From Aggregatilineales bacterium (GTDB taxonomy: Bacteria; Chloroflexota; Anaerolineae; Aggregatilineales; Phototrophicaceae), in assembly GCA_029975765.1 (NCBI GenBank), contig JARKOK010000111.1:1-34238 (forward strand): a DNA stretch of 34,238 nucleotides, written 5' to 3'. The notes beneath the pieces were generated by a model. The model was not told where the DNA came from, ran no database searches, and was given only the letters and a program-made list of their open reading frames with translations. A program made the translations under genes and the position numbers. Every line of letters begins with the position of its first letter. Position 1 is the stretch's first letter. Positions 14,605 through 29,589 of this stretch are shown here, one piece after another.

Positions 14605-15657
14605 TTAGCACCCCGGCAGCAGCACATCCTTGCCCAACACCTTGCCGGTGCGGGCCGATTCATACGCGCCGAACACCAGCCGCACCGTCTTCAGATTGTC
14701 GTCGCCGGTGGTTTCGCCGGGTTCAAGTCCCTTCAGCGCGCGGGCGATGTTCCACTGCTCCGGCACGATGCTCGAATGTGGCACGTCATAGGCCGGATCA
14801 GCCCAGGCGTAGTGCGGCGGCTTGTGGCGCGAGGCAAACACACCCTCGCTGGTGGTTTCCCGAATCCAGAAGTCCGGCGCAAGTTCGAGGAATCCCCGGT
14901 CGCCTTCCACCTGAATGTACGTTTCCGGGAAGCGGTCATGTTCGCGTCTGGTGGCGTAGCTCATATCAGCCACGACCGTCACACCATCGCCCATTCGCAT
15001 CATCACCGTCGCTGAGTCTTCGCCTTTGATTTCAGGATTGACACGGTGGGTATGGGCATAGAGCGAGGTGGCATCGCCAAATAAATACCGCGCCGCATCG
15101 AGGATATGGCTGCCGATGTCCGTCAGGATGAACTGTTCCAGTTCTTTCAGGAACGGCTGATTATCAAACACCGGGAAGCTGTTGCGGTAGTCAATGTGGG
15201 CGCGGAAAAGTTTCCCGATGTGGCCTTTGTCAAGCTGGTGTTTAAAGGCGCGAATGGCGGTCTGCCAGCGCCAGTTTTCGTTGATATACAGCGGCACATT
15301 ATACTGCTTACACACGTTGACCAGCGCCTCGGCTTCTTCCAGCGAGGTCGCCATCGGCTTCTGGCACACAACCGGCAGGCCGCGTTCCGCCGCCATTTTG
15401 GTGTGCGGGTAATGCTGTTCGACGGCGGTGCAGATGTCCACAAAATCGAGATTGTCCCGTTCCGCGTCCAGCAGGGCTTCAGGGTCGTCGTACACCTTAT
15501 CCAGCGGGATGCCAAACTGCGCCGCCAGCTTTTCCGCCTTCGATCTGGTGCGATTGTACAGCGCCACACACTCGACTTCGCCGGTTTCATTCCAGCCGGG
15601 AAGCTGGTAGTACGCCCAGAAGCCGGTGCCAAAGAGAGCAAATTTCAGTTTCGGCAT
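14605..15657 (-). CDS. apsD: D-apiose dehydrogenase, Gfo/Idh/MocA family
   Basis: It likely oxidises D-apiose to D-apionolactone with NAD+. The 350-residue protein has a Rossmann N-terminal half (FALFGTGFWA, Gly10 and Gly12), the family lysine in CQKPMA (Lys100-Pro101) and a catalytic-type DIGSHILD (Asp180, His184). Segments such as VECVALYNRTRSKAEKLA, INENWRWQ and NSFPVFDNQPFLKELEQFIL are what I recall of ApsD proteins of the D-apiose pathway. The assignment is strengthened by apnO, apnL and oiaK in the same locus. It begins three bases after the preceding gene's stop, with AAGGA overlapping that stop, so the two are translated together. It is the last gene of the minus-strand arm. Substrate specificity is inferred. 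Confidence 0.8.
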   Translation of the reverse strand: MPKLKFALFGTGFWAYYQLPGWNETGEVECVALYNRTRSKAEKLAAQFGIPLDKVYDDPEALLDAERDNLDFVDICTAVEQHYPHTKMAAERGLPVVCQKPMATSLEEAEALVNVCKQYNVPLYINENWRWQTAIRAFKHQLDKGHIGKLFRAHIDYRNSFPVFDNQPFLKELEQFILTDIGSHILDAARYLFGDATSLYAHTHRVNPEIKGEDSATVMMRMGDGVTVVADMSYATRREHDRFPETYIQVEGDRGFLELAPDFWIRETTSEGVFASRHKPPHYAWADPAYDVPHSSIVPEQWNIARALKGLEPGETTGDDNLKTVRLVFGAYESARTGKVLGKDVLLPGC

Positions 15658-15660
15658 ATT

Positions 15661-16479
15661 TTATTCCTTGATGAACTGTCGTAAATAGGTGACACTTTCG
15701 CGCGCCCACCGCGCTTCCATCGCCACCGTTTCGTCAATCGTGATCTGCATCGGCAGCCAGGCTTCGATGATGGCGTTGAACTGCCGCCCGTAATGGTTAA
15801 GCCGGTTCAGCAGCCAGGGAATATCCAGCATTCCCTGTCCGGTAGGCCGCCCGGTGATTTCAAAACCCATCGCGTGACCGGCGCGTTTGACCACAAATTC
15901 CTTGACATGCAGGTTGACCACGTAACAGCCGAGTGTTTCGACCACCATTTCCGGCCCTTCCAGCGAGCCGAACGAGTTGACGGTATCCAGGCAGATGCCC
16001 ACGTTGGGACTGTTCAGTTTTTCGATGATGCCGGCCAGTGCCTTCACTTTAAAACGGTCATGGTTTTCAATCGCCAGTGTGATGCCGGCTGCTTCCAGTT
16101 CCGGCAGCACGGCACGAATCAGGCTGACGACTTCCTCCGGCGAAGGGCGGTGGTCTTTGCTGTCCACCACCACGCGCAGAATGGACGACTTGAAGAATCT
16201 GGCGATTTCAAGATACTGCCGCAGGTGATCGGTCTGGATGCCGCGCGTGCCGACTTCGATGGCGATCAGGCGTTTGGCTGCATCGTCGCGCAGGGCGTGA
16301 AGCTGCTCGTCAGACAGCGTATGCAGCGGCAGATTGTCCGCGATTTGCACCAGCCGCAGACCGAGCCTGTCGGCGAAGTCGAGCAGCGCAAAGGCATCCA
16401 TCGGCTGTTTCGGCTGGTCGTAACCGGGCACGCCAATCGCCCAGGCCACACCATACGTGCCGAGTCCTAAAACGGTCAT
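15661..16479 (-). CDS. Xylose-isomerase-like TIM-barrel protein, possible 3-oxo-isoapionate decarboxylase
   Basis: The 272-residue protein is an AP-endonuclease-2/xylose-isomerase-like barrel. Metal-site strands are visible: ENHDRF, then GICLDTVNSFGSLEGP with the Asp, NLHVKEF with the His, and the C-terminal IIEAWLP with the Glu. GYDQPKQPMDAFALLDFADR and LVQIADNLPL are distinctive. In known D-apiose loci proteins of this fold act either as 3-oxo-isoapionate decarboxylase (OiaC) or as D-apiose isomerase. The EGP/DTVNSFG pattern makes me lean to the decarboxylase, weakly. ATG 16479 is chosen for GGAGAAAATCCC in front; the longer frame upstream runs through a palindromic repeat. It is tightly coupled to apsD. 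Confidence 0.65.
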   Translation of the reverse strand: MTVLGLGTYGVAWAIGVPGYDQPKQPMDAFALLDFADRLGLRLVQIADNLPLHTLSDEQLHALRDDAAKRLIAIEVGTRGIQTDHLRQYLEIARFFKSSILRVVVDSKDHRPSPEEVVSLIRAVLPELEAAGITLAIENHDRFKVKALAGIIEKLNSPNVGICLDTVNSFGSLEGPEMVVETLGCYVVNLHVKEFVVKRAGHAMGFEITGRPTGQGMLDIPWLLNRLNHYGRQFNAIIEAWLPMQITIDETVAMEARWARESVTYLRQFIKE

Positions 16480-16495
16480 GGGATTTTCTCCATGT

Positions 16496-16547
16496 GTAGG
16501 GGCGAGGCATCCCACAGGGATTTCCTTCGGTCATGCCTTGTCCCTAC
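16496..16547. repeat. GTAGGGG-family inverted repeat
   Basis: GTAGGGGCGAGGCAT (16496-16510) pairs at 13 of 15 positions with ATGCCTTGTCCCTAC (16533-16547). It lies 16 bases upstream of the TIM-barrel start codon. Confidence 0.7.
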
Positions 16548-16567
16548 GGATGAATTGACATTGACGC

Positions 16568-16596
16568 GTAGGGGAGGGTCTCAGACCCTCCCCTAC
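16568..16596. repeat. 29-base perfect palindrome, GTAGGGG family, copy B
   Basis: It is identical to the copy at 4160-4188 (14-base arms, GTAGGGGAGGGTCT). Its edge supplies the TAG stop (16593-16595, minus strand) of the mutarotase-like gene. Confidence 0.9.
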
Positions 16597-17660
16597 AATC
16601 GAACCCCTAATAAAAAGTGCGCGATCCGGCGAATCGCATCCGGCGCGCCAACGTAGGCCCACAGCAAAAATGTATCGGTGCTGCTGGCTCGCCCGGCGCC
16701 AATCGTCTGCCCGCTGCATTCCATTTCGCCAAAGCCTACGCCGCCCGTGCTGAACTGTCCGCCGTCGTTATAGACGTGGACGGAGTGACCTGTTTCCCCC
16801 TGTTTATCAGGTGGTTCCTCAGCATAGATGGACGATGGATTGTTGAAGAAGGAGCGTACCAGCAGATAGTCGCGGCCATCCGGCAGCGTATGATGATAGC
16901 CCATACGCCCGGACATGCAGGCGGCCTTGTAGCCCACTTTGTACTGGCGCTGGCCGGTGATGGGCAGCCGCAGGTGCGGCACGTCACCGAAGCCGACAGC
17001 CCGCGCTTCGTCCGGCACATCGCCGCAGTAATCTGAGGCGCGGATTTCCGGCGCGCAGGGGATAAGCAGTTGGCCGCCCGCATTGACCTGCACCAGATTC
17101 CAGATTTCGCTGAGGATGGGGGTGTCGTTGAGTTCAGCCAGCATCGCCGTCTGTTCATATCCGGCATATAAAACGCCGCGCAGCAGCGCAGCATCCGTGT
17201 GCAATGGGTTGGCTATCGGGCGAACGGCGCGGCGCACGTCCAGTCGCTTCGTACCGGCGGCGGTGTTGTAAGCCGTCAGGTTGATCTGCTGGTGAAACGT
17301 GACGGTATCGCCGCTGACGGTCAGGTTGTAGCTGCCGGGGTCTATGGCTGGGGGAACGGACAGCGTACCCCAGAAGTCATTACGGTCGCGGACATTGTAC
17401 TGAATCTCTGGCGCGATCCAGCAGCGTTCGCCGCCCAGATTCCAGCCGCCTTCGGCCACAAACTGCCTGAAACTCTCAGGTGAGTTTAACGCGGCCTGAT
17501 TCGTCCACAGCAGATTTTCGGAGTCTGGTGTGGGGAACAGTCCCAGCACACGCGCGCCGCGCTGCGTGACCAGGGCGCAGGCGTCACCCTGCAAGGGCAG
17601 TACGTGATATAACTCACCCGCACCGTCCAGCGTTTGTCGTAGTTGCGTCAGGGTTGGCAT
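16593..17660 (-). CDS. Putative mutarotase-fold protein of the apiose locus (DUF6786-like)
   Basis: This 355-residue protein is probably all-beta. The stretches QRGARVLGLFP, ENLLWTN and GGWNLGGERCWIAPEIQYN resemble DUF6786 and aldose-1-epimerase-like galactose-mutarotase folds, in which a sugar lies across a beta-supersandwich. Further marks are PHLRLPITGQRQYKVGYKA and VHVYNDGGQFSTGGVGFGEM. No catalytic residue can be fixed by eye. Its place between apnO and the TIM barrel suggests a task on apiose or a precursor, for example anomer or lactone handling; this is inference. It starts at ATG 17660 with AAAGG about 11 bases upstream. Its stop codon lies within a repeated palindrome, so the C-terminus may have been shortened by that element. 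Confidence 0.55.
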   Translation of the reverse strand: MPTLTQLRQTLDGAGELYHVLPLQGDACALVTQRGARVLGLFPTPDSENLLWTNQAALNSPESFRQFVAEGGWNLGGERCWIAPEIQYNVRDRNDFWGTLSVPPAIDPGSYNLTVSGDTVTFHQQINLTAYNTAAGTKRLDVRRAVRPIANPLHTDAALLRGVLYAGYEQTAMLAELNDTPILSEIWNLVQVNAGGQLLIPCAPEIRASDYCGDVPDEARAVGFGDVPHLRLPITGQRQYKVGYKAACMSGRMGYHHTLPDGRDYLLVRSFFNNPSSIYAEEPPDKQGETGHSVHVYNDGGQFSTGGVGFGEMECSGQTIGAGRASSTDTFLLWAYVGAPDAIRRIAHFLLGVRL

Positions 17661-17738
17661 GGTTTAAGCAACCTTTTTCGAGCGGGAGGCACGAACAATG
17701 CTGGCCTCCTCAGGAAAACAGGGTTATTACCTTAAAAT

Positions 17739-17830
17739 CCTCAACCCCTGCCCCCTCTCCACTGCGTAGAGAGGGGGTACATTATGCGGTTGAAGTCCCC
17801 TCTCCATAGAATGGGGTAGGGGTGGGGAGA
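17739..17830. repeat. Longer-family G/C-rich element
   Basis: CCTCAACCCCTGCCCCCTCTCC is followed by AGAGAGGGGG, GTTGAAGTCCCCTCTCC and GGGGTAGGGGTGGGGAG, the same block order as at 10413 and 26750. It occupies most of the 179-base gap between the apnO stop and the mutarotase-like start. Confidence 0.65.
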
Positions 17831-17839
17831 GAATGAATA

Positions 17840-18700
17840 CTACACTTTCACCGGTTGGTTCAGACTGTCGGTGATCTCCCGCACGCTGTGTTTCAGCGCG
17901 TCGAGGTTCATAATGTTTTCTTTCCAGTCCGGCTTGAAGATTTTTTCGTAGGCTTTGGCAATCGCTAGTTTCGCGCCGTCCGAGAAGGGGAAGCCAGAGA
18001 AGCCAAAGATGATGGCAAATTCGATGCGCGCGTGGCCGCTGAGGAATTCCCAGGCCGCGTCCGCTGGAACGCCCATCTCGACGGCTTTATCATAGGCTTC
18101 CTTAATGGCGCTGATACACGTCGCGGCGAAGGTTTCCACCAGCGCCGGTTCGAGGATTGCCATCTGCTCAACGGTGATGCGGAATGAGGTCAGCACCGGC
18201 GCGTACATATCGCGGGCGATCGCGTTGCCCTTTTCGTAATCGGCGTCCGGGCCATGATACAGCGCGTTGACGATGTGGTGTTTGGCCTTTACGCCGCCGA
18301 ACCAGTCGGTGCGGGCTTCTTCCGTCACTTCGTCATGGAACATGGGCGGGTGGCACGGATGGCTGACGAAATAGGTCAGATCGTCACGCACGGGCATCAC
18401 TTCGGCATAGGCCGCCGCTGGATCGAGGCCGATGACCATCGTGCCGGGGCGCAGCGTCGGGATGATTTCATGGGTGATCTTGCCGATTAGCCGGTCGGGC
18501 AGCGCCAGAATTACAACGTCGGCGTCGGCCAGGGCTTCAGCCTGCGGCGTGGTTTTCAGGCCGCGTTTCGCGAGATTGGCAATCCCCACTTCGCTGACTT
18601 CGACATATCGCATGTCATATTTGTCCGACATCTTCATCAGATTGTCGGTGATGCGGCAGCCCATTTTGCCGCCCGCGCCCATGAGTGCAACTTTCAACAT
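17840..18700 (-). CDS. apnO: D-apionate oxidoisomerase
   Basis: It likely converts D-apionate to 3-oxo-isoapionate by NAD-dependent oxidation with migration of a hydroxymethyl group, similar in logic to ketol-acid reductoisomerase. The 286-residue protein opens VALMGAGGKMG (Gly8, Gly10, Gly11, Gly14), a dinucleotide-binding loop. It continues DADVVILALPDRLIGKITHE and DPAAAYAEVMPVRDDLTYFV, then the distinctive VSHPCHPPMFHDEVTEEA. A helical C-terminal half (FSGFPFSDGAKLAIAKAYEK) would form the shared active site of a dimer. Generic annotation calls such proteins phosphogluconate-dehydrogenase C-terminal-like. The locus context makes ApnO the best call. ATG 18700 has AGGAG eleven bases upstream. 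Confidence 0.82.
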   Translation of the reverse strand: MLKVALMGAGGKMGCRITDNLMKMSDKYDMRYVEVSEVGIANLAKRGLKTTPQAEALADADVVILALPDRLIGKITHEIIPTLRPGTMVIGLDPAAAYAEVMPVRDDLTYFVSHPCHPPMFHDEVTEEARTDWFGGVKAKHHIVNALYHGPDADYEKGNAIARDMYAPVLTSFRITVEQMAILEPALVETFAATCISAIKEAYDKAVEMGVPADAAWEFLSGHARIEFAIIFGFSGFPFSDGAKLAIAKAYEKIFKPDWKENIMNLDALKHSVREITDSLNQPVKV

Positions 18701-18791
18701 GATTGAGAACTCCTAAAAATGAACAGTCAACATTGAATTGGTCTGCAAAGTCGTTCTTTCACGACGGCTTTGTTCGTTCAGATACTTTTCT

Positions 18792-18843
18792 GTAGGGGCC
18801 GCCTATGTGCGCGCCCTGGGCGACCACACAGGGTCGCCCCTAC
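18792..18843. repeat. GTAGGGG-family inverted repeat
   Basis: GTAGGGGC (18792-18799) pairs with GCCCCTAC (18836-18843), and an inner hairpin GGGCGACC/GGTCGCCC overlaps the right half. It lies between the last transporter gene and apnO and could trim or attenuate the operon transcript. Confidence 0.7.
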
Positions 18844-18854
18844 GGTTTTGGTGT

Positions 18855-19883
18855 TCAGCTTTCCACCGGACGGATGAACCGCCGTTTAAGTTTGACGAGG
18901 TTGGCTTCGCGCAGGCTGTCAAAGAAAACGGCGATGAAGATGATGCCGCCGCGCACCATCGGCTGGATGTACAGGTTGACGTTGTTGAATTGCAGCATGT
19001 ACTGCACCATCTGGATCAGCAGCGCGCCGATCACCGTCCCCAACACATTACCAACGCCGCCAAACAGGCTGGTGCCGCCCAGCACAGCCGCCGCGATAGC
19101 ATCAAACTCCTTACCTTCGGCGAAACTGCGGTCAAGCCGCCCGATCTGCGCGATCAGGATGAAACCCGCCAGCGCCGCGCAGAAACCCGACACGATGTAG
19201 ACGGTGGCCGTCACCCGGTCACTGTTGATACCGGCCTTCTTCGCCACTTCCACGTCATTGCCAACGGCATAGACCTGCCGCCCTAAAGGCGTGCGCGTCA
19301 GGATGAGGTACGCCAGGGCAACGACAATGCCAAAGGCGATGATCGGCATCGGGATGCCCAACGGAGAGATCAGGCCGAAGTCGAGCATCTGTCGCGGAAA
19401 GTCAATCTGTTTGGACTCCGTCAGCGCCGTGCCGATGCCGCGCCCAACGACCAGCGTGCCGAGCGTGACCATGAACGGCACAATCTTCAGCCTGACGATG
19501 CAGAAGGCGTTAAAGGCACCAAACAGCGTGCCGACCAGCAGCGCGACCAGCAGCGCCGGTATCACGTCAAATCCCTGATGGCGCATCAGCAGCCCGGCCA
19601 CGACGGACGACAGGTACATATTCGAACCCACCGACAGGTCAATCCCGGCAGTCAGCAGCACAAACGTCATGCCGACGGCGATGATGCCGGTGAAGGATGC
19701 CTGCTTGGTGATATTGATGATGCTGTTCAGGAGGTTGTTGCCTTCAAACAGCTTGGGCGACGACAAACCAAAGATCACGAACACGGCGATGAACAGGACG
19801 ATAGTGGAATAGTTCAGCAGCAGTTGGGCAGCGTTGGTGCGCCCATTTGCGCTGCTTTTGGGTTTCAGAATATTCACGCTCAT
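18855..19883 (-). CDS. Sugar ABC transporter permease (ribose RbsC class), second subunit
   Basis: This 342-residue membrane protein has 8-10 hydrophobic spans and typical BPD_transp_2 stretches: GITMTFVLLTAGIDLSVGS-like (GMTFVLLTAGIDLSVGSNMY), FNAFCIVRLKIVPFMVTLGT, and near the end AAAVLGGTSLFGGVGNVLGT. It belongs to the importer class for pentoses and related sugars. Its ATG overlaps the ATPase stop by four bases (ATGA), so the two are coupled. With the permease at 21412 it would form a heterodimeric channel. The substrate, D-apiose, is inferred from the downstream enzymes. Confidence 0.9.
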   Translation of the reverse strand: MSVNILKPKSSANGRTNAAQLLLNYSTIVLFIAVFVIFGLSSPKLFEGNNLLNSIINITKQASFTGIIAVGMTFVLLTAGIDLSVGSNMYLSSVVAGLLMRHQGFDVIPALLVALLVGTLFGAFNAFCIVRLKIVPFMVTLGTLVVGRGIGTALTESKQIDFPRQMLDFGLISPLGIPMPIIAFGIVVALAYLILTRTPLGRQVYAVGNDVEVAKKAGINSDRVTATVYIVSGFCAALAGFILIAQIGRLDRSFAEGKEFDAIAAAVLGGTSLFGGVGNVLGTVIGALLIQMVQYMLQFNNVNLYIQPMVRGGIIFIAVFFDSLREANLVKLKRRFIRPVES

Positions 19884-21415
19884 GCGCCGTTACTCCCGTT
19901 ACCGTTGCTGCTCTCGCGGAAGGCTGCCCGGAGGATGGCCTCCTGGTCGAACTCCTCCCGCGTGAAGTGACCAAAAACCTCGCCCCGGCTCATCACCACG
20001 ATGCGGTCACACATGCCCATCAGTTCTTCCAGTTCGGAGGAGATGAACAGGACGCCGCTGCCGCTGGCTGCAAGCTGGTCAATGATGCTGTAAATTTCGT
20101 ACTTCGCGCCCACGTCAATACCGCGTGTTGGTTCATCCATGATGAACACGGAAGGTTTTGACAGCAGCCACTTGGCAACGACGACTTTCTGCTGGTTGCC
20201 GCCGCTCAGACTCTTGGCCGGCTGGACGACGATGCTGCCGCTTTTCAACTGCAACTGGTTCGCCACTTGTCCGGCGGCGCTGACCATCTCGTGCTGGTTG
20301 ATGACCTGTGTCACCTTACCGGCGAAAGCGGGCAGCGATACCAGCGCGATGTTGTCCGCGATGTTGATGTTCATCAGCAGCCCTTCTTCGCGGCGGTTTT
20401 CGGTCACGAAGGCGATATTGTGGCGGATACTCTGGCGGACGGATGAACGGTTAAGCGCCCGGTCATTGACCCTGACTTCGCCCTGCTCGAACGTATCCAG
20501 GCCAAATAACATGCGCGCCAGTTCGGTACGCCCCGAACCCATCAGCCCGAACAGCCCAACCACTTCACCCCGGTTCACCTTCAGATGCACGTTTTCAACA
20601 ATACCTTTGGCCGAAATACCCCTCAGTTCCAGCAGCGGTTCGCCGGTCGGAACGGAGGTGCGTTCGGGATATAACTGCTCGATGCTGCGCCCGACCATCA
20701 GCGCGATCATACGGTTGGTGTCGAAGTTCCGCGCCGGTTCCTGCGTGACCAGCAGGCCGTCACGCATGACGGCGATCTGGTCAGAAATCGCCAGCACATC
20801 GGTCAGGATGTGCGAGATATAGACCAGCGCCTTGCCCTGCTCCCGCAGACGGCGCATGATCTCAAACAACTTTTCGGTCTCGCGGTTGGTCAGGGAGGTG
20901 GTCGGCTCATCGAAGATAATCAGCGAAGCATCCAGATACAGCGCCTTCGCGATTTCCGCCAGCTGGCGCTCGCCCGGCGACATCCGGTCTACCTGCATAT
21001 CGGGCGACAGGTCGAGGCCGACGGCGGCCAGCACTTCGCGGGTGTGGCGGCGGACGGCGGCGCGGTCAATGAACCGGAATGGGCCGCGTCCGATAGTCGG
21101 GAAACCTTCGATGAAGATGTTTTCCGCGATGGTCAGGTTGGTGAACAGGTTCAGTTCCTGATGGATGAACGCGATGCGGGCGCGGGTGGCATCGGCAGGG
21201 TTGCGCGGCGCGTAGGGTTTGCCCTGGTAGAGCATCAGGCCGCTGTCCGGCTGCACCACGCCGCCGATCAGGTTCATCAGCGTGCTTTTGCCCGCGCCGT
21301 TCTGCCCGATCAGGCCGAGGATTTCGCCCGCGCCTACCCTGATGCTGACCTCCCGAACGGCGGGAATACCAAAGAAGGTTTTGCTGATCTGCTGCGTTTC
21401 GAGCACAGGGGTCAC
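19880..21415 (-). CDS. Sugar ABC transporter ATP-binding protein (RbsA class, two domains)
   Basis: The product has 511 residues with two nucleotide-binding domains. The first has Walker A GQNGAGKST (37-45), signature MSPGERQLAEIAKAL and Walker B SLIIFDEPTTSL. The second has a degenerate Walker A (GLMGSGRTELAR), the full signature LSGGNQQKVVVAKWL and DEPTRGIDVGAK, all as usual for carbohydrate-uptake CUT2 ATPases. It powers both permeases encoded beside it. It starts with GTG at 21415, overlapping the preceding permease stop by four bases (GTGA). The three transporter genes therefore form one tightly coupled block. Confidence 0.95.
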   Translation of the reverse strand: MTPVLETQQISKTFFGIPAVREVSIRVGAGEILGLIGQNGAGKSTLMNLIGGVVQPDSGLMLYQGKPYAPRNPADATRARIAFIHQELNLFTNLTIAENIFIEGFPTIGRGPFRFIDRAAVRRHTREVLAAVGLDLSPDMQVDRMSPGERQLAEIAKALYLDASLIIFDEPTTSLTNRETEKLFEIMRRLREQGKALVYISHILTDVLAISDQIAVMRDGLLVTQEPARNFDTNRMIALMVGRSIEQLYPERTSVPTGEPLLELRGISAKGIVENVHLKVNRGEVVGLFGLMGSGRTELARMLFGLDTFEQGEVRVNDRALNRSSVRQSIRHNIAFVTENRREEGLLMNINIADNIALVSLPAFAGKVTQVINQHEMVSAAGQVANQLQLKSGSIVVQPAKSLSGGNQQKVVVAKWLLSKPSVFIMDEPTRGIDVGAKYEIYSIIDQLAASGSGVLFISSELEELMGMCDRIVVMSRGEVFGHFTREEFDQEAILRAAFRESSNGNGSNGA

Positions 21416-22599
21416 GAGCGCACCTCCCGGTTCATCAGGCGGGTACGGGTGATGTCCAGCAGCGCCGCAATCAGGATGACGACACCTTTTACCGCGTCAA
21501 TCACAAACGGCGATAGTTTCATGGCGTTGAGGATGTTCAGCAGCAGGACAAAAAAGGCCACACCGAAGAATGTGCCCTTGATCGTCCCCTTGCCGCCAAA
21601 CAGGCTGGTGCCGCCGATGACTGCCGCGCCGATGATGTCCATCAGCAGGCCATCACCCAGCGAGGGGCGGCCAATTTCCAGCCGCGCCGAGTAGAGAATG
21701 GCCGAGACCGCCGCGCAGAAGCCGCTGAAAGCGTAGACCATCATAATGACCCGGCTGCCGGGCACGCCGGACACTTCCGACGCCCGGCGGTTGGTGCCGA
21801 TAGAGTACATCTGGCGGCCAAACACGGTCCGTTTGAGGATGAACTGCGCCACCACCGCCAGGCCGACGGCGATCACGAACGGGTACGAGATGAGAGGTAA
21901 AACCTCGCGCCGGGCAATTTCCGGCGTCAGTTTAGGACCGAAGTAGACTGAAACAATATCGCCTTTGCCAAGCAGCAGGAAATCAGCCGGCAGGCCGGAA
22001 ACATTACGGGAAGCGGTCAGCCACAGCGCCAGTGCGCTGAAAAATATCATGGAAACCAGCGTTACCATGAACGGCGCCATCTTAAAACGGGTGATGGCAA
22101 AACCGTTCCACAGCCCGATCAGCGTGCCAAACAGCAGCATCACGATGACACCGATGGGGGTTGAATTAGGAACGCCCGCCAGGATGCCGCCTTTGTCGGA
22201 AATCAGAGTTCCCCACAGTGGGCTTTTATCAAACGTTGCGGCATCGAGCGTCTGGGTGATAAAGAGCGCACCCACCACGCTGGTGACAGCCATAATCGAA
22301 GTCACCGACAGGTCAATACCACCAAGAATCAGGACGAACGTCTGGCCGATAGCGACAGCCAGCAGCGGCCACATGTTGGCAAGCTGGTTGCTGATATTGA
22401 TCGGAGCGGATAAGGTTGGAAAGGCCGTTGAGGCCAGGACAAAGAAAATGATAATTAAGTAGAGGACAAAATAGTCTGACAGCAGCACCCGCCGCAGAAA
22501 CGTCAGCAGCGGATTTCCAGTCCGGCGCGGCGCGGTTTCCACGACAATCGAGGGGGACAGGCTGACGGCGGATTTCAAACGATCATCAAGAGTAGACAC
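21412..22599 (-). CDS. Sugar ABC transporter permease (ribose RbsC class), first subunit
   Basis: This 395-residue BPD_transp_2 protein is longer than its partner. It has a cytoplasmic N-terminal extension of about 35 residues and an extra hydrophilic stretch after DLSVTSIMAVTSVVGALFIT (DAATFDKSPLWGTLISDKGG). Family segments include FVLILGGIDLSVTSIMA, NGFAITRFKMAPFMVTLVSM and GAAVIGGTSLFGGKGTIKGT. It starts with GTG 22599 behind GAGGCAGAAACC. It is separated from the binding-protein gene by 166 bases carrying a large inverted repeat, a layout that often lowers permease levels relative to the binding protein. Confidence 0.9.
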   Translation of the reverse strand: MSTLDDRLKSAVSLSPSIVVETAPRRTGNPLLTFLRRVLLSDYFVLYLIIIFFVLASTAFPTLSAPINISNQLANMWPLLAVAIGQTFVLILGGIDLSVTSIMAVTSVVGALFITQTLDAATFDKSPLWGTLISDKGGILAGVPNSTPIGVIVMLLFGTLIGLWNGFAITRFKMAPFMVTLVSMIFFSALALWLTASRNVSGLPADFLLLGKGDIVSVYFGPKLTPEIARREVLPLISYPFVIAVGLAVVAQFILKRTVFGRQMYSIGTNRRASEVSGVPGSRVIMMVYAFSGFCAAVSAILYSARLEIGRPSLGDGLLMDIIGAAVIGGTSLFGGKGTIKGTFFGVAFFVLLLNILNAMKLSPFVIDAVKGVVILIAALLDITRTRLMNREVRS

Positions 22600-22729: not shown

Positions 22730-22765
22730 CAGCCGGAATAAACCGGCCTCCCCATGTTCGATGGT

Positions 22766-23803
22766 TTACTGATCGAGGAAACCCTCACGGTAGAGCTTGC
22801 AGCCCCACATATCGTCACTCTGCCAGATGAAGTTACCCGCCGTCAGCGCGAAACCGGGGTCGAGCAGCACTTCGTTCGGCTGGGTGTCGCCCTCTTCAAC
22901 GGCCTGGAGCAGGCGGTTCATCGTCAGTTCGGCTTCATAGAACAGGTTCTGCACGCCGGTCGCGTCCACCAGACCCTGTTCAATCAGCATACAGGCGGTG
23001 GCATCGCCGTCGAGACCAGCCATCAGGACATGGTTCGGGTCGCCCATCGGCACCCACTTGCCGCGCGGTTCCAGCACCGAACGGATGGTGGGGAACAGGA
23101 AGTCCGACGAGGTGTAGAGGAAGTCCACATCCGGGTTGGCGGTGATGGCGGCTTCCAGGTTCGCCAGCGCGGTGGCCGCGTCCCATTCCGAGGCAACTTC
23201 AATCGGATCGGCGAACATGCCGGGGTATTTCTCGTTGTAACGATTGATGACGTTGAAGAAACCTTCACGGCGGCCAATGGCGTTGGTGTCCTGCAGCGCA
23301 CCGACGACGATCAACGGCTTGATCGGTTTGCCAGTGGCTTCCCACTTCGCCAGCGCCTTCTGAGCGATGAATTCAACGGCCTGTTCGGTGGCGCTCACGT
23401 TGTCGGCGACGACGGTGATGCCCTTGCTGCGATCATTGGGCGGACGGTTGAAGACCGCTATCGGAATGTCGGCGTCCTGCGCTTCGTTGATGATGGTCAC
23501 GGCGCTGTCACCGTCCTGCGGGATGATGATGATGCCGTCCACGCCCTGGGCGATGCACTCGCGCACCTGCTCAAGCTGGCGGTCGGGGTTTTCGTTGGCG
23601 TTGTATTCCAGCACTTCATGCCCCTGCTCACGCAGCGTTTCGGTGATGGCCTTGTGGCCGGCAACCCAGAATTCCGTTTCCAAATCCTGGAAGCCAAAAC
23701 AAATGGTCAGCTTATCCTGGGCCAGGGTTGTGCCGAACATCATCGTCGCCAGTAATGCGACCACAATGAGAGCAATCCCGTGTTTTGTCAATTTATTGAA
23801 CAT
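22766..23803 (-). CDS. Sugar ABC transporter substrate-binding protein (ribose-binding class), probably for D-apiose
   Basis: The 345-residue periplasmic-binding-protein fold (Peripla_BP_4) is preceded by a signal peptide, HGIALIVVALLATMMFGTTLAQ, cleaved near residue 28; there is no lipobox. The mature part opens LTICFGFQDLETEFWVAGHK and has the hinge-domain patterns AQGVDGIIIIPQD, IPIAVFNRPP and GDATACMLIEQGLVDATGVQ. It would bind the sugar outside the membrane and deliver it to the two permeases. I start at ATG 23803, behind GGAAAGGAAATAAATCC, and discard an 17-residue upstream extension. Apiose as ligand is inferred from the catabolic genes; solute-binding proteins of this class were how the D-apiose pathways were found. 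Confidence 0.88.
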   Translation of the reverse strand: MFNKLTKHGIALIVVALLATMMFGTTLAQDKLTICFGFQDLETEFWVAGHKAITETLREQGHEVLEYNANENPDRQLEQVRECIAQGVDGIIIIPQDGDSAVTIINEAQDADIPIAVFNRPPNDRSKGITVVADNVSATEQAVEFIAQKALAKWEATGKPIKPLIVVGALQDTNAIGRREGFFNVINRYNEKYPGMFADPIEVASEWDAATALANLEAAITANPDVDFLYTSSDFLFPTIRSVLEPRGKWVPMGDPNHVLMAGLDGDATACMLIEQGLVDATGVQNLFYEAELTMNRLLQAVEEGDTQPNEVLLDPGFALTAGNFIWQSDDMWGCKLYREGFLDQ

Positions 23804-23915
23804 GGATTTATTTCCTTTCCAAAGTAAATAAAACACGATTGTTGGATCGGACATGGAGTGCCGGTGTGTCCTTTTCGCTCCCTCCTTTTAGTTTATTTCT
23901 CCGAAAACTCGCTCA

Positions 23916-24650
23916 TCATCCATCGGGATGTTGAAGCCACGTTTTGGCCTGCCGCCGGCCAGATTTCCTGCCGCGTCGTTTGTTAAGCCCACGAACGGCG
24001 GCCATACATTCGGCGGCCACGCGCTGGTTAATCCGGCGATTTTCCTGACAGATACGGCCCAGATTACGCGCGCGGTAAGCATCCAGAATCGCGCAGTGAT
24101 CCTCTATCGCCAGGTACTCGTCGTAGCCCGGATCGGCATCGGCCCGCAGGTACAGCACCGCCGCGATCTGGGCCACGATTTCCTGCCAGTTGCGCATCAG
24201 CAGGGGGTGGTTGCTGTAATTAATCAAATACTGGTGGAAAGCCATATCCGTACTGCGCACCTGCTTAAAATCGTTCTGTTCGATGTAGGTGCGCTGGGTA
24301 TTGATGAGACCCTGCAGGTAGTCGAAATCGGCGTCGGTCAGTGTAGGATGAATCAGTTCAGCAGTGAAATTTTCCAGGGTTGTCCGCATGGAGAAGATGG
24401 CTTCTACGTCCTCTTCATTAAATGCGCGGACAAAACAGCCCCGATTCGGTACGGAGACGATCAGGGCTTCGCGTTCCAGGATAATCAGGGCTTCTCGCAC
24501 CGGTGTGCGGCTGACACCCAACTGCTCAGTTAATTCCGCTTCCGTAATGTGGTCGTTGGGTTTTAAACGCCCTTCAATAATGGCCGTGCGGATTTGTTCA
24601 GCGACCTGTTCGCGCAGGTTGATCGGGCGTATTTGTGAGAAAACTTTCAT
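23916..24650 (-). CDS. GntR family transcriptional regulator, FadR subgroup (FCD domain)
   Basis: This 244-residue regulator is the likely switch of the apiose locus. The winged helix-turn-helix spans about residues 10-75, with the recognition helix LGVSRTPVREAL (44-55) and wing VSVPNRGCFV. The all-helical FCD domain (about 80-220) carries metal-site residues in DMAFHQYLI and later EDHCAILDAYRAR, where a pathway acid such as apionate could bind. A basic tail (NKRRGRKSGRRQAK) follows. It is the first gene of the minus arm, and its promoter coincides with a palindrome of the right form, so autorepression is likely. The ribosome site before ATG 24650 is weak. Confidence 0.9.
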   Translation of the reverse strand: MKVFSQIRPINLREQVAEQIRTAIIEGRLKPNDHITEAELTEQLGVSRTPVREALIILEREALIVSVPNRGCFVRAFNEEDVEAIFSMRTTLENFTAELIHPTLTDADFDYLQGLINTQRTYIEQNDFKQVRSTDMAFHQYLINYSNHPLLMRNWQEIVAQIAAVLYLRADADPGYDEYLAIEDHCAILDAYRARNLGRICQENRRINQRVAAECMAAVRGLNKRRGRKSGRRQAKTWLQHPDG

Positions 24651-24685
24651 AAAAATCGTTTCAACGTAATGGAAAATTTTGCTGC

Positions 24686-24713: not shown

Positions 24714-24716
24714 GAG

Positions 24717-24745
24717 ATTGTATACAGTATGCTGTATATTGTCAA
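24717..24745 (-). promoter_or_regulatory. Promoter of the regulator/transporter arm
   Basis: On the minus strand TTGACA (24740-24745) and TACAAT (24717-24722) are separated by exactly 17 bases, nearly a consensus sigma-70 promoter. The spacer is filled by the palindromic operator, so a bound repressor would block RNA polymerase. Confidence 0.75.
24721..24738. promoter_or_regulatory. Probable GntR/FadR-type operator
   Basis: TATACAGTATGCTGTATA is a perfect inverted repeat (TATACAG/CTGTATA, 4-base centre). FadR-subgroup regulators commonly bind TGTATACA-like sequences. It overlaps the minus promoter and would sit at the start point of the plus-arm promoter. A second related site, TTGTCATACAA, lies at 24747-24757. 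Confidence 0.7.
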
Positions 24746-24807
24746 GTTGTCATACAAATGTGATTATTTTCACAAATGAATATGGGGGGTATTGAAAGGC
24801 TAAACTT

Positions 24808-26736
24808 ATGAATTCACTTTCCCAAAACAGGATTTATTACGGCAGCGATGCTCCCCTGCCTGAAACGCTTCCTCTCCGCGCCGGGCCGTTGAGTCTGATT
24901 TACGACAACGGCAGCCTGCGGATGGTCAAACTGGGCGGGCAGGAGGTGCTGCATCAGATTTATTCCGCTGTGCGTGATCAGAACTGGGGCACGATCCCCG
25001 GCCAATTGAGCGATGTGCGGATTGACCGGCAGCCCGCCTCGTTCCACATCCACTATCGTTCCGAACACAAACACGGCGAGATTCATTTTGTCTGGACGGG
25101 CGACATCAGCGGCACGCCGGATGGCACGGTCACGTTCAGCATGGACGGCGCGGCGCTGTCAACCTTCAACCGCAACCGCATCGGCTTCTGCATCCTGCAT
25201 CCCATCAACTGCGCCGGCAAAGCCTGCACGATTGAGGACGTGGATGGCAATACCTACGAGGGCGCCTTCCCGCGTGAGATCGCGCCGCACCAGCCATTTC
25301 TGAATCTGCGCAAAATCACGCATGAAGTCCTGCCCGGCGTGCAGGCTGAAGTCTGCATGGAAGGGGATACCTTCGAGATGGAAGACCAGCGCAACTGGAC
25401 GGACGCCTCGTTTAAGACCTACTGCACACCGCTCGGCCTGCCCTTCCCGGTAACAGTCGAAGCCGGGATGAAGATCAGCCAGAAAATCACGCTGCGATTA
25501 ATCGGCGGCGCGCCGAAGATCGAAACAGCATCCGGCGGTCTGACGTTTAACATCCTCGATGAGACGACTCCACTGCCGGACATCGGCCTGGGCGCGGCCA
25601 GTCACGGCCAGCCGTTGACCGAGCGTGACATCGAACGGCTGAAGGCACTGAATCTGTCACATCTGCGAGTGGACGTGAAATTCGCTCAGCCGGACTACGA
25701 AGCGAAATTCCGGCAGGCAGCGCAGGAAGCGGCAGCAATTGGCGTGGGGCTGGAAGTGGCGCTGTTCCTGACCGATAACGCTGAAGCCGAACTAGCCACC
25801 TTCCGCCTGCTGCTGGAACAGCTTCAACCTCGAATATCGCGCTGGTCGGTGTTTCATCAAAAGGAAAAGTCCACGACGACCAAATGGGTAATGCTGGCGC
25901 GCGAACGGCTGGGGGAATGGGCGGAACGCGCTTCGGTTGGCGCGGGCACGGATGCCTTTTTCACCGAACTTAACCGCGAACGCCCGCCGGTCGAAGTCGC
26001 TGACTTCGTAACTTTTTCCAACAACGCGACGGTACACGCGGTAGACAACGCCTCAGTCACGGAAACGCTGCTGACGCAGGCGGAAACCGTCCGCAGCGCG
26101 AAAGCGTTCGCCAATGGCCTGCCGGTCGTCGTCAGCCCGATCACCTTCAGGATGCGCTGGAATCCCAACGCCACCGGCCCCGAACCGGCCACGCCTCCCG
26201 GCGAACTGCCGCCCCAGGTGGATGCGCGTCAGATGTCGCTGTTCGGCGCGGGCTGGACGGCGGGCAGCATCAAATACATGGCGGAGAGCGGCACGGCCTC
26301 GGTGACCTATTACGAAACCACCGGCTGGCGCGGCGTGATGGAAACCGCCAAAGGTTCGCCTGTGCCGGAGAAATTCCACTCCATTCCCGGTGGTGTGTTC
26401 CCGCTGTACCACATCTTTGCCGATATAGGCGAGTTCAAGGGTGGCGAAGCCGTTCGCAGCCAATCGAGCGATCTTCTGGCCGTTGATGGCCTGGCGCTGC
26501 GAAAAGGCAGCCAGACGCGCCTGCTGCTGGCGAACTTCACGCCGGATAAACAAACCGTGCTGATACCGGGACTGAGCGGGTCGTGGATACTCAAACTGCT
26601 GGACGAAACCAATGCCGAAGCGGCGATGTCCGACCCCGACGCTTACCGCGCTCAGGCCGGGCAGCAGCTTGAAGCCGGCGCGGACGGCCTGCGCCTGACC
26701 CTGCCGCCGTTCGCGGTTGTCAGGGTGGATGGGTAG
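24808..26736 (+). CDS. apnL: D-apionate lactonase
   Basis: It likely hydrolyses D-apionolactone, the product of apiose dehydrogenase, to D-apionate. The 642-residue protein has no signal peptide. Its first third is beta-rich and carries the stretches I associate with ApnL: NRNRIGFCILHPINCAGKAC (121-140), PREIAPHQPFLNLRKITHE (155-173) and EGDTFEMEDQRNWTDASFKT (185-204). The rest looks like a TIM-barrel plus beta-sandwich arrangement (SHLRVDVKFAQPDYEAKFRQ; GLEVALFLTDNA), with a C-terminal strand set ending LPPFAVVRVDG. It is the first gene of the plus arm, directly downstream of the shared operator. ATG 24808 has GAAAGG nine bases upstream. Confidence 0.82.
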   Translation: MNSLSQNRIYYGSDAPLPETLPLRAGPLSLIYDNGSLRMVKLGGQEVLHQIYSAVRDQNWGTIPGQLSDVRIDRQPASFHIHYRSEHKHGEIHFVWTGDISGTPDGTVTFSMDGAALSTFNRNRIGFCILHPINCAGKACTIEDVDGNTYEGAFPREIAPHQPFLNLRKITHEVLPGVQAEVCMEGDTFEMEDQRNWTDASFKTYCTPLGLPFPVTVEAGMKISQKITLRLIGGAPKIETASGGLTFNILDETTPLPDIGLGAASHGQPLTERDIERLKALNLSHLRVDVKFAQPDYEAKFRQAAQEAAAIGVGLEVALFLTDNAEAELATFRLLLEQLQPRISRWSVFHQKEKSTTTKWVMLARERLGEWAERASVGAGTDAFFTELNRERPPVEVADFVTFSNNATVHAVDNASVTETLLTQAETVRSAKAFANGLPVVVSPITFRMRWNPNATGPEPATPPGELPPQVDARQMSLFGAGWTAGSIKYMAESGTASVTYYETTGWRGVMETAKGSPVPEKFHSIPGGVFPLYHIFADIGEFKGGEAVRSQSSDLLAVDGLALRKGSQTRLLLANFTPDKQTVLIPGLSGSWILKLLDETNAEAAMSDPDAYRAQAGQQLEAGADGLRLTLPPFAVVRVDG

Positions 26737-26749
26737 GTAGGTTGGGCAC

Positions 26750-26866
26750 TTTGCCCTCATCCTCCGTCCCCTTCCGCTCCGCGTCAGGGTGAAGGGGAGA
26801 GATATGGTTCTCTAAACGTCTTTAAGTCCCTCTCCATGAGGGAGCGGGATTTAGGGTGAGGGCAAA
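26750..26866. repeat. Longer-family G/C-rich element with inverted ends
   Basis: The terminal arms TTTGCCCTCA (26750-26759) and TGAGGGCAAA (26857-26866) are perfect inverted repeats. Inside are CCGTCCCCTTCC, GTGAAGGGGAGAG, TTTAAGTCCCTCTCC and GGATTTAGGGTGAGGG, shared with 10413-10566. It fills the gap between apnL and the RLP gene. Confidence 0.7.
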
Positions 26867-26898
26867 AAACGTTAACTGTAACCGAGGTAAATCATCTA

Positions 26899-28170
26899 AT
26901 GACCCCCGCCGATGTTGTGCGCTGTACATATCTGATCGAGTCGCCGTTTCCGCCGGAACGGGCCGCTGACATCACCGCCGCCGCGCTGTCGTCCGGCACG
27001 TTTACGAAAGTACCCGGCGAAACCGAAGCACTGAAACAACGATTCTCGGCAGTAGTAGAGAAGGTTGAGGCGCTGGAAACCGTTGAACAGGCGGCTCTGC
27101 CTTACGGCGAAAGTCCGCTTCAAACGCCGCACTACCGCGCGCAGGTGATGGTCAGCGTGCCGCTGGAAGTCACCGGCATGGAACTGTCAACGCTGCTGGC
27201 GGTGGTGCTGGGCGGCGTGACCGAACTGCGCGAGTTATCCGGCCTGCGCCTGCTGGACATCGAACTGCCCGCCGCGTTTGGCGAGGCGCATCCCTGCCCG
27301 CAGTTCGGCGTCAACGGCACGCGCCGGCTGACCAACGTTTACGACCGTCCCATCATCGCTTCGATCATCAAACCGAATGTTGGCCTGCTGCCGGAACAAA
27401 CCGCCGCGATGGTTCGCTCGCTGGCGGAAGCCGGTGTGGACTTCGTCAAAGATGACGAAAAGATGACCAATCCGCCGTATTCACCGCTGGCGCAGCGTAT
27501 CGAAGCGGTGATGCGCGTCATCAACGATGTGGCGGATCGCACCGGCAAACGCACTATGTTTGCGTTTAACATCAGCAGCGACGACCCGGAAACCCTCATA
27601 CGCAATCACGATTTAGTGCTGGCTGCGGGTGGCAGCTGCGTTATGGTGAACATCAATCACGTCGGCTACGCCGGCGTGCGTTATCTGCGCCGCCGCAGCC
27701 AGCTTCCGATTCATGCCCACCGCAATGGCTGGGGCATGATGACCCGCTGCCCGCTGCTGGGCATGGAATTTAACGCCTACAACAAATTGTGGCGGCTGGT
27801 CGGTGTTGACCACCTGCATGTGAACGGCATTCGCAACAAATACTGGGAAGCCGATGCGTCAGTGGTCAATGCCATCGGACAGTGTTTGACGCCGTTGTTC
27901 AGCCAGGAAGACCGGCTGCTGCCGGTGGTGGGTTCGGGCATGTGGGCGGGGCAACTGCCGGACACCTACCGGCTGACGCGAACAACCGACTTCATGTACA
28001 TCGCCGGAGGGGGGATTCAGGGGCATCCCGGCGGCGCGGCGGCGGGTGTGTTATCGCTGAAGCAGGCATGGGAAGCCTCGGTACAGGGCATCACACTCGA
28101 CGAATATGCCCGCGATCATGCCGAACTGCGGCAGGCATTAGAGAAGTTTGGCAAGAAAACGAAGGCGTAG
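26899..28170 (+). CDS. RuBisCO-like protein, likely 3-oxo-isoapionate 4-phosphate decarboxylase or transcarboxylase/hydrolase
   Basis: The protein has 423 residues, the normal large-subunit length. Against RuBisCO it keeps IIKP (Lys158, equivalent to K175), DFVKDDE with the carbamylatable Lys184 and metal ligands Asp186 and Glu187, HAHRN (His274, Arg275), HVNGIRNKYWE (His307, and Lys314 at the loop-6 position), and the phosphate-site GGGIQGHPGG. It differs at Asn160 (K177 in RuBisCO) and Gly106 (N123). It is therefore a form IV protein, not a CO2-fixing enzyme. Between apnL and oiaK it fits the two RLP activities known from D-apiose loci: decarboxylation to L-erythrulose 1-phosphate, or cleavage to 3-phosphoglycerate and glycolate. 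No erythrulose-phosphate isomerase genes are nearby, which mildly favours the second. ATG 26899 follows CGAGGT. Confidence 0.88.
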   Translation: MTPADVVRCTYLIESPFPPERAADITAAALSSGTFTKVPGETEALKQRFSAVVEKVEALETVEQAALPYGESPLQTPHYRAQVMVSVPLEVTGMELSTLLAVVLGGVTELRELSGLRLLDIELPAAFGEAHPCPQFGVNGTRRLTNVYDRPIIASIIKPNVGLLPEQTAAMVRSLAEAGVDFVKDDEKMTNPPYSPLAQRIEAVMRVINDVADRTGKRTMFAFNISSDDPETLIRNHDLVLAAGGSCVMVNINHVGYAGVRYLRRRSQLPIHAHRNGWGMMTRCPLLGMEFNAYNKLWRLVGVDHLHVNGIRNKYWEADASVVNAIGQCLTPLFSQEDRLLPVVGSGMWAGQLPDTYRLTRTTDFMYIAGGGIQGHPGGAAAGVLSLKQAWEASVQGITLDEYARDHAELRQALEKFGKKTKA

Positions 28171-28197
28171 GGGGGACGCGGCATGCCGCGTCCCTAC
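28167..28197. repeat. GTAGGGG-family palindrome containing the RLP stop codon
   Basis: GTAGGG-GACGCGGCA pairs with TGCCGCGTCCCTAC; the left arm has two extra G. The TAG at 28168-28170 is the RLP stop codon. The hairpin lies 31 bases before the oiaK start. Confidence 0.8.
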
Positions 28198-28227
28198 AAA
28201 ATGATATTCGCAAGAAAGGACATTCTC

Positions 28228-29589
28228 ATGACTGACTTATTACTCACGTTTTACGGCGATGACTTTACCGGCTCAACCGATGTGATGGAGTCGCTCGAAA
28301 TCGGCGGTGTGCCCACCGTGCTGTTCCTCGAACCGCCAACGCCGGAGCAGCTAACCGGGCGCTTTGCCAGCGTCCGCGCGGTCGGTGTCGCCGGGGTCAG
28401 CCGCACCATGACCCCCGCCGAGATGGACACAGAACTCATCCCTCGTTTCAAGGCGATTGCCAGCCTGGGCGCGCCGTTTTTTCATTACAAAATCTGCTCC
28501 ACCTTCGACTCGTCGCCAACCATTGGCAGCATCGGCCACGCGATTGACATCGGCTTCGACATTTTTAAGCCGCCGGTTGTCCCATTAATCGTCGGCTCGC
28601 CGGCGCTGCGCCGCTATGTGGTGTTTGGCAACCTGTTCGCGCGCGTGGGCGAAGTCACCTACCGGCTGGATCGCCATCCGACGATGAGCAAACACCCGAT
28701 CACGCCGATGAACGAAAGCGACCTGCGGCTGCATCTGGGCAAACAAACCTCGCGCTCGATGGGGCTGATTGACGTGTGGCACATGGAAAGATCGGACGCC
28801 GAGATTGACGCACGTTTCCAGCAGTTGATGAACGATGGCGCGCAAATCGTGCTGTTTGATACGCTCGACCAGCGGCATCTGGCGCACATCGGGCGTATTG
28901 TCTGGGGGCTGCGCGGCGACAAGCCGGTGTTTTTTGTCGGCTCATCCGGCGTTGAAAACGCGCTGACGATGCACTGGCAGGCGGTTGGCGTGGTCGAAAA
29001 ACCGGAACCGCTCCAATCACCCGGAAAAGTGGATCAACTCGTTGTGGTTTCTGGCAGCGCCGCGCCACCGACCGCCGAACAGATTGATTATGCGCTGGAA
29101 CGGGGTTTTGCCGGCATCCGGCTGGATTCCCCGTGTCTGGTTGATCCGGCTGCTGCCGACGCCGAACGCGAAAAAGCGATTCAGCAGGCGCTGACCATCC
29201 TGGGTAACGGCGGCAGCGTGCTGCTGTATTCGGCGCGCGGGCCGGAAGACCCGGCGATTGGAATGACAAAACAGTATATGCAGTCCATCGGCCTCGATCC
29301 GCAGACAGTGGGCAGCCGTTTGGGGACGCAGCAGGGGCTTATCCTGCGGGAACTGCTGGAACGCACCGGCCTGAAGCGGGCATGTGTGGCGGGGGGCGAT
29401 ACCTGTGGTTACGCCTCCAAACAACTGGGCATCTACGCGCTGGAAACAATTGTGCCGATTGCGCCCGGCGCGCCGCTGTGCCGCGCCAGTTCCAATCAGC
29501 CGCGTTTTGATGGTCTGCAAATTTCGCTGAAGGGCGGCCAGAACGGCGCAGCCGATTATTTCGTCAAAATCCTGAACGGCGGCGCTTAA
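28228..29589 (+). CDS. oiaK: 3-oxo-isoapionate kinase (four-carbon acid sugar kinase family, DUF1537)
   Basis: It likely phosphorylates 3-oxo-isoapionate at O4 with ATP, giving the RLP substrate. The product has 453 residues. The N-terminal substrate domain (PF07005) begins FYGDDFTGSTDVMESLE; the C-terminal nucleotide domain (PF17042) has VVVSGSAAPPT, SVLLYSARGPEDPA and the glycine-rich CVAGGDTCGYASKQLG. Family members (OtnK, DtnK, OiaK) act on C4-C6 acid sugars, and the neighbours decide in favour of OiaK. I start at ATG 28228 with AGAAAGGA upstream; the longer frame from 28183 runs into the palindrome. It is the last gene of the plus arm. Confidence 0.85.
   Translation: MTDLLLTFYGDDFTGSTDVMESLEIGGVPTVLFLEPPTPEQLTGRFASVRAVGVAGVSRTMTPAEMDTELIPRFKAIASLGAPFFHYKICSTFDSSPTIGSIGHAIDIGFDIFKPPVVPLIVGSPALRRYVVFGNLFARVGEVTYRLDRHPTMSKHPITPMNESDLRLHLGKQTSRSMGLIDVWHMERSDAEIDARFQQLMNDGAQIVLFDTLDQRHLAHIGRIVWGLRGDKPVFFVGSSGVENALTMHWQAVGVVEKPEPLQSPGKVDQLVVVSGSAAPPTAEQIDYALERGFAGIRLDSPCLVDPAAADAEREKAIQQALTILGNGGSVLLYSARGPEDPAIGMTKQYMQSIGLDPQTVGSRLGTQQGLILRELLERTGLKRACVAGGDTCGYASKQLGIYALETIVPIAPGAPLCRASSNQPRFDGLQISLKGGQNGAADYFVKILNGGA

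Follow-up and report, generated by a model that had tools for sequence, protein, structure and literature searches.

A putative GntR-controlled oxidative D-apiose locus with a RuBisCO-like protein in an Aggregatilineales genome

Organisation and conservation of the locus

The window analysed here (34,238 nucleotides, contig JARKOK010000111.1 of assembly GCA_029975765.1) belongs to an Aggregatilineales bacterium of the Chloroflexota, whose genome is a metagenome bin of 5.97 Mb in 594 contigs (95.7% complete, 6.65% contaminated). At 14605-29589 it carries twelve genes, all of them intact open reading frames, on both sides of one intergenic region, and this locus, which probably serves the oxidative catabolism of D-apiose under GntR control, is the subject of our analysis (Table 1). 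Outwards from the regulator, the minus strand encodes a GntR/FCD protein, the sugar-binding protein (SBP), permease, ATPase and further permease of a CUT2 transporter, an ApnO-like protein, a DUF6786-like protein, a TIM barrel protein and an ApsD-like dehydrogenase, and the plus strand encodes an ApnL-like protein, a RuBisCO-like protein (RLP) and an OiaK-like kinase. A previous sequence-only reading had named most of these genes: those it named are present, with their families matched far above chance (scores in Table 1), and the divergent arrangement that it placed at the regulator is likewise found, the GntR and ApnL genes being separated by a gap of 157 bases that holds an operator-like site. 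The gene order it gave differs from the physical order, and its list passed over the conserved TIM barrel and DUF6786-like genes. Within the SBP gene there is an internal ATG at 23803, ahead of a signal-like segment.

Table 1. Features of the locus, in window positions, with the matches on which their assignment rests.
Feature	Position	Strand	Basis
ApsD-like Gfo/Idh/MocA dehydrogenase	14605..15657	-	38-40% identity to Gfo proteins of the S. meliloti, Paracoccus and R. etli apiose-type clusters
AP_endonuc_2 TIM barrel protein, OiaC-like	15661..16515	-	PF01261; 35% identity to a Pantoea At-9b protein
DUF6786-like protein	16593..17660	-	PF20583, matched by 7 of 9 homologues
ApnO-like protein (putative D-apionate oxidoisomerase)	17840..18700	-	PGDH_C (PF16896), 175 bits
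CUT2 permease	18855..19883	-	NCBIfam CUT2 permeases
CUT2 ATPase	19880..21415	-	NCBIfam AraG/XylG/RbsA-type
Second CUT2 permease	21412..22599	-	PF02653 and NCBIfam
CUT2 sugar-binding protein (SBP)	22766..23854	-	RbsB/XylF-type
GntR/FCD regulator	23916..24650	-	PF00392 and PF07729
Candidate operator ATTGTATACAGT (consensus ATTGTATACAAT)	24717..24728	.	GntR-ApnL gap; recurs in 11 of 11 GntR-bearing clusters
ApnL-like lactonase	24808..26736	+	NF049900, 327 bits
RuBisCO-like protein (RLP)	26899..28170	+	NF042437, 563 bits; sister to OiaX
OiaK-like kinase	28183..29589	+	NF042436, 510 bits

When 61 genomes were searched for the RLP, 15 gave a match at E 0.001, and in 12 of these, the source genome included, the match was full-length with E below 1e-100. 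The same twelve genes stand together in eight of the other eleven genomes (G007, G009, G010, G013, G014, G015, G022 and G031), which makes nine complete sets when the source genome is counted; the RLP of G007 is 74% identical to that of the window. As for the rest, the cluster of G036 is interrupted by contig ends, G024 has the GntR, ApnL, RLP, OiaK, ApnO and ApsD genes with none for the transporter, the TIM barrel or the DUF6786-like protein in the 31 kb read, and G021 has ApnL, RLP and OiaK alone in 36 kb. The locus is a real, conserved unit. A weak RLP match in G005 (L028) was discarded as a cluster, there being no cluster gene in its surroundings, and the epimerase gene at 29743-30909 of the window was not counted as a member of the locus: among the stretches read from the relatives, a close homologue (69%) occurs in G021 alone, about 8.6 kb from the kinase gene, and G024 has a 26% match.

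In every one of the 11 genomes where a GntR gene lies within the cluster stretch, the palindrome ATTGTATACAAT recurs with no more than one mismatch, in the gaps upstream of the GntR gene, of the SBP gene, or of the ApnL or RLP gene. At this stringency it was found neither in the stretches of G021, which are without GntR (two of the three each hold one match with two mismatches), nor in L029, a contig that starts inside ApnL. The window itself has a single site, and from this site alone we claim no significance for the operator, since such a site turns up at least once in 33 of 100 shuffles. Per locus, 0 to 0.35 matches are expected from shuffles with two mismatches allowed, an expectation that somewhat overstates the surprise because the motif was chosen by inspecting these same upstream regions, and the genomes are related. 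It is the recurrence in all the GntR-bearing clusters, not the window site, that makes the operator candidate credible: the locus is probably co-regulated via GntR.

Apiose-type clusters and the proposed route

We compared the locus with the apiose-type cluster on plasmid p42f of Rhizobium etli CFN42 (L058), which reads NanR, oiaX, kinase, TPI, RpiB, ApnO, SBP, DUF2291, ATPase, permease, Gfo and ApnL; its enzyme names were partly assigned in this analysis, and several of its genes are annotated by family alone. Both loci have homologues of ApsD, ApnO, OiaK, the RLP and ApnL together with a CUT2 ATPase and permease and a GntR-type regulator, which in R. etli (NanR) adjoins oiaX. R. etli differs in having TPI, RpiB and DUF2291 genes and one listed permease, whilst the window has two permeases, the OiaC-like TIM barrel, the DUF6786-like protein and an RLP without the marker residues of OiaX described below. 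The ApsD match is reciprocal: with the R. etli protein as query, the window ApsD is the first of 16 Gfo/Idh/MocA matches in the source genome (250 bits, the next at 82), and in the reverse comparison the full-length plasmid matches at 38-41% identity are rhizobial, all others among the best 40 of 1377 records being at most 30% identical. A second Gfo gene of the window (4323-5300, Gfo6-like, 152 bits) was rejected as ApsD, with 18-23% identity to the cluster proteins and the last place among the 16. ApnO is 46-48% identical to the cluster proteins of R. etli, Sinorhizobium meliloti and Paracoccus (its solved relative being 5t57, 257 bits) and OiaK 42-46% to those of the same three; the OiaK score lies under the cut-off of 700, as does that of the R. 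etli cluster kinase (473). Curated apiose-dehydrogenase models were matched by neither the window ApsD nor the R. etli protein, and the model library gave no ApnO model matched by either ApnO.

In the proposed route the CUT2 transporter would import the sugar, ApsD would convert D-apiose to D-apionolactone, the ApnL-like protein would open the lactone ring, ApnO would turn D-apionate into 3-oxo-isoapionate and OiaK would phosphorylate the latter, leaving 3-oxo-isoapionate-4-phosphate to be broken down by the RLP; each of these reactions, as well as the regulation, we infer from homology and gene context. Such a GntR-controlled oxidative D-apiose pathway appears to us fairly probable, and the apiose reading is well supported because the enzyme set is also found in known apiose-type clusters, the twelve genes recur and the operator-like palindrome recurs with them. 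Most likely, the locus represents a lineage-specific variant of the known pathway, in which the lactonase, the importer and the RLP are not nameable from homology alone. Clusters of this kind reportedly encode the oxidative apiose route that is associated with Carter et al. (2018). According to PMC11747546, a Rhodobacteraceae strain with genes for a lactonase, apiose dehydrogenase, oxidoisomerase, kinase and decarboxylase uses D-apiose as sole carbon source. The sequence-only reading had assigned the set to this route: the ApsD, ApnL, ApnO, OiaK and RLP homologues do occur together, and the call is upheld by the reciprocal ApsD match and the identities of ApnO and OiaK, but not by ApnL, which falls outside the isofunctional score range, nor by the RLP, which is not demonstrably OiaX. 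Its remark that apiose use is not known to be established for the lineage agrees with the accessible text of the literature on Chloroflexi/Chloroflexota and apiose or on Anaerolineae and RuBisCO-like proteins (mostly non-subscription papers), where no apiose cluster is described for the phylum. The available text of PMC8067394 mentions, with no role given, an RLP from Aggregatilineales that may or may not correspond to the window gene. The locus suggests what Form IV RuBisCO-like proteins may do in Chloroflexota and ties an uncultured lineage of this phylum to the breakdown of a plant cell-wall sugar.

Several observations weigh against this reading. The window ApnL, expected by the sequence-only reading to fall inside the characterised isofunctional group, stays under the cut-off of NF049900 (327 against 750 bits), whilst the R. 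etli protein is confirmed by this model at 1050 bits and that of Labrenzia reaches 925; it is 30-36% identical to the proteins of R. etli (31%), Paracoccus and S. meliloti. A phylum-wide sample of 301 Chloroflexota genomes has ApnL-like genes in 16, the source genome included, and in nine other genomes no RLP, kinase or ApnO gene was found near them in the 5 to 36 kb read, several of these stretches being cut by contig ends (L090, L093-L099, L117); for this reason we rejected ApnL as a marker specific to apiose utilisation in the phylum. In one of the nine, G218, an ApsD-like gene (52% identical) lies about 9 kb from ApnL. The SBPs are not orthologous, the window protein being the sixth of 24 matches to R. 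etli SBP in the source genome (58 bits); it also matches weakly, at 58 bits, the structure 5ibq, which we take to be that of a D-apiose-binding SBP. The transporter has two permeases and is without DUF2291. Apiose supply speaks partly for the reading: PF13204 (Apiosidase) is matched over its cut-off in 6 of 12 cluster genomes versus 8 of 49 others (p 0.02) and above 200 bits in 5 of 12 versus 4 of 49 (p 0.01), p values that are optimistic given the relatedness of the genomes; against it, the source genome has only a 69-bit match, and PF13204 is, to our knowledge, not specific for apiosidases. Finally, the contamination of the metagenome bin has to be counted here.

The RuBisCO-like protein and the end of the route

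On the OiaX model NF042437, the window RLP does not reach the cut-off of 700 bits, which the R. etli protein passes with 784; among other non-OiaX RLPs, those of G013 and Labrenzia score 492 and 416. It is 50-53% identical to the RLPs of R. etli, Paracoccus and S. meliloti and 48% identical to that of Labrenzia. Trees were computed for 29 RLPs (leaving out weak matches as well as L035 and L038, the second and third Niabella loci, the RLP match of L038 being in two pieces) and for 28 kinases (leaving out G036, cut by a contig end, L035 and L038). In the RLP tree, the window clade together with G036 is joined to the four labelled OiaX proteins with support of 97/95, and the window clade alone groups with OiaX at 94/91; a constraint holding all Chloroflexota rows together was rejected (approximately unbiased test, p-AU 0.0015). 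In the kinase tree the 12 Chloroflexota rows form one group (94/92), and a constraint uniting the window kinase with the partner kinases of OiaX was rejected with p-AU below 1e-90. Because the two trees conflict (L017-L027 and the window), the RLP appears to have been exchanged inside a cluster otherwise inherited as a unit, exchange among otherwise similar Chloroflexota clusters being the simplest reading; an old duplication with differential loss would be the alternative. The apparent swap also offers a comparison for the choice that RLP active sites make between decarboxylation and transcarboxylation/hydrolysis.

Two positions separate the window RLP from OiaX: the histidine conserved in RuBisCO (alignment to 3a13) is Gln in all four labelled OiaX proteins and H307 in the window, and the residue after the HRNGW motif is Asp in the same four and G279 in the window. 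His and Gly occupy these positions in the other 25 of the 29 RLPs, the window included; these markers were picked after viewing the alignment, on an OiaX sample of four, and are not published criteria. K188, on the other hand, is common to the window RLP and OiaX. The cluster of Labrenzia sp. THAF191a (L064) has the same upstream set as R. etli with an RLP not labelled OiaX, and resembles the window in that RLP and kinase stand without TPI or RpiB beside them (19 kb read) and in the His and Gly of its RLP, which is presumably OiaT-like. It differs from the window in that this RLP falls in another clade, in its far higher ApnL score and in a transporter of alphaproteobacterial type.

The OiaX product L-erythrulose-1-phosphate requires LerI and DerI, members of the TPI and RpiB families, and OiaT from Xanthobacter yields 3-phosphoglycerate and glycolate. 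For the RLPs of Agrobacterium K84 and Xanthobacter, PMC6302742 gives decarboxylation and transcarboxylation-hydrolysis, respectively, of 3-oxo-isoapionate-4-phosphate. A search of the window and of its relatives' cluster stretches at E 1e-4 gave no homologue of R. etli LerI or DerI, nor of the LerI or LerK of Pantoea. A second TPI acting as LerI was rejected, since TPI is single in 15 of the 16 genomes searched and absent from G022; the source genome has one RpiA and one RpiB, the single TPI and RpiB both lying on other contigs. No Dak1 kinase turned up in eight of the 12 cluster genomes, the source genome among them, which removes the L-erythrulose branch in those eight.

Given these results we favour, with low confidence and contrary to the tree position, a last step of the transcarboxylase/hydrolase type forming 3-phosphoglycerate and glycolate, to which we give about an even chance, over decarboxylation to L-erythrulose-1-phosphate, which we rate somewhat below even. 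The place of the RLP next to OiaX in the tree argues for decarboxylation, RpiB could serve as DerI and the lone TPI might act on L-erythrulose-1-phosphate. Moreover, that no TPI or RpiB gene adjoins the RLP counts for little in favour of the OiaT type because the labelled OiaX clusters of Paracoccus TOH (29 kb read) and Salipiger (25 kb read) are also without them; owing to such clusters we hold transcarboxylation at even rather than a little above it, and do not set decarboxylation lower. A complete scheme in which the RLP acts as an OiaX-like decarboxylase in the same apiose pathway, with LerI and DerI replaced, on the way to D-erythrose-4-phosphate, by the TIM barrel together with either RpiB or the housekeeping TPI, we regard as rather unlikely. 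It would fit the sister position of the RLP, its score on the OiaX model above those of G013 and Labrenzia, the shared K188, the presence of the TIM barrel in all nine transporter-bearing clusters read to their ends, the labelled OiaX clusters just named and the occurrence of both RpiB and RpiA in the source genome. However, H307 and G279 are kept where the four OiaX proteins have Gln and Asp, G024 has the core genes without the TIM barrel in the 31 kb read, there is no TPI paralogue, and sister clusters of the same context use a different RLP clade.

Accessory proteins, other substrates and neighbouring features

We propose an accessory part in the apiose route for both the TIM barrel and the DUF6786-like protein. 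In the TIM barrel, the residues E, D, H and E, presumably metal ligands, are conserved, and a tree places the Chloroflexota proteins with those of Pantoea and Erwinia (0.89, long branches). The DUF6786-like gene is found in the same nine transporter-bearing clusters as the TIM barrel. Its product has 355 residues; the best match of its homologues to PF20583 is at 1e-13, the window member itself not matching. It is rarer than ApnL, with 3 of the 301 phylum genomes having it (the source genome, G244 and one weak match), and the genes around it in G244 encode, among others, an alcohol dehydrogenase and a protein of the fucose-isomerase type. A mutarotase assignment was rejected: profile comparison gave probabilities of 0.2 and 0.3% with two aldose-1-epimerase sets, and 0.1 and 0.2% with two unrelated controls. 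Searching the PDB with the DUF6786-like alignment gave nothing up to E 10, and structure prediction ended at a pLDDT of 33. From these genes and the trees one might construct a distinct Chloroflexota apiose pathway, in which an OiaX-adjacent RLP with a RuBisCO-like active site replaced another cluster RLP whilst the kinase stayed, and the TIM barrel and DUF6786-like proteins carry out reactions that the proteobacterial routes lack (for example as a new L-erythrulose-phosphate isomerase or a sugar- or lactone-processing enzyme); we consider this a tentative and doubtful proposal.

That the locus uses the same enzyme families on a branched substrate other than apiose, be it a sugar such as D-hamamelose or a sugar acid, is improbable. 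Related RLP-kinase pairs do occur in other contexts, ApnL and the SBP are the most divergent members of the set, and PMC8914248 quotes a hamamelose route in Ochrobactrum that ends in an RLP; however, ApsD is the clear counterpart of the R. etli cluster gene, and ApnO, ApsD, ApnL, OiaK and the RLP jointly match apiose-type clusters. The Pantoea and Erwinia clusters of ApnO, TIM barrel, TPI and DAK genes, which presumably follow the OiaC route with their TIM barrel as OiaC, resemble the window in having ApnO and in a TIM barrel that belongs to the same family, and differ in their DAK-type kinase and TPI-family protein, with RLP and OiaK not listed. We consider it very improbable that the window TIM barrel is a true OiaC, decarboxylating 3-oxo-isoapionate to L-erythrulose with OiaK and the RLP as a side branch: its motif residues are conserved and it is 35% identical to the Pantoea At-9b protein, which lies between a TPI-family protein and ApnO (Erwinia being arranged alike), but the expected Dak1-type kinase was not found in the source genome or in seven other cluster genomes, and comparable TIM barrels (34-37%) stand in clusters whose other genes encode transketolase halves and TRAP transporters, an ApnO gene not being listed there.

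Some further loci came to light alongside the apiose reading. PMC8914248 examines an R. etli RLP during growth under biotin limitation; its gene (RHE_RS26630, L058:13959-15254) is the oiaX of the apiose-type cluster, and the word "apiose" is absent from the main text of that paper. In loci of Bacteroidota, Verrucomicrobiota and Planctomycetota, RLP-kinase pairs share the same 21 kb with homologues of aceric acid hydrolase (NF049879, 1128 bits in L034) in five of seven cases (L032, L034, L035, L036 and L038), and in all seven they are followed by genes for a protein of the Asp/Glu racemase family and for an SBF transporter; this is a hint of RLP-dependent catabolism of aceric acid, another branched sugar of rhamnogalacturonan II. 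A haloarchaeal plasmid of Natronosalvus rutilus (L059:9965-12689) carries a pair of RLP and four-carbon acid sugar kinase genes, close to which a cupin, a zinc dehydrogenase and a racemase-family protein are encoded. In Mesorhizobium ciceri, an ApnL homologue (L005:10049-11944) accompanies an NAD(P)-dependent oxidoreductase and an ABC transporter made up of an extracellular SBP, two permeases and UgpC; neither ApnO nor an RLP is listed among the genes of the 22 kb shown. In the window itself, a perfect 8-bp inverted repeat with a 6-base loop lies at 18818-18839, between the ApnO and permease genes, and a cytochrome P450 gene at 7711-9108 is nearest to pentalenene oxygenase (281 bits).

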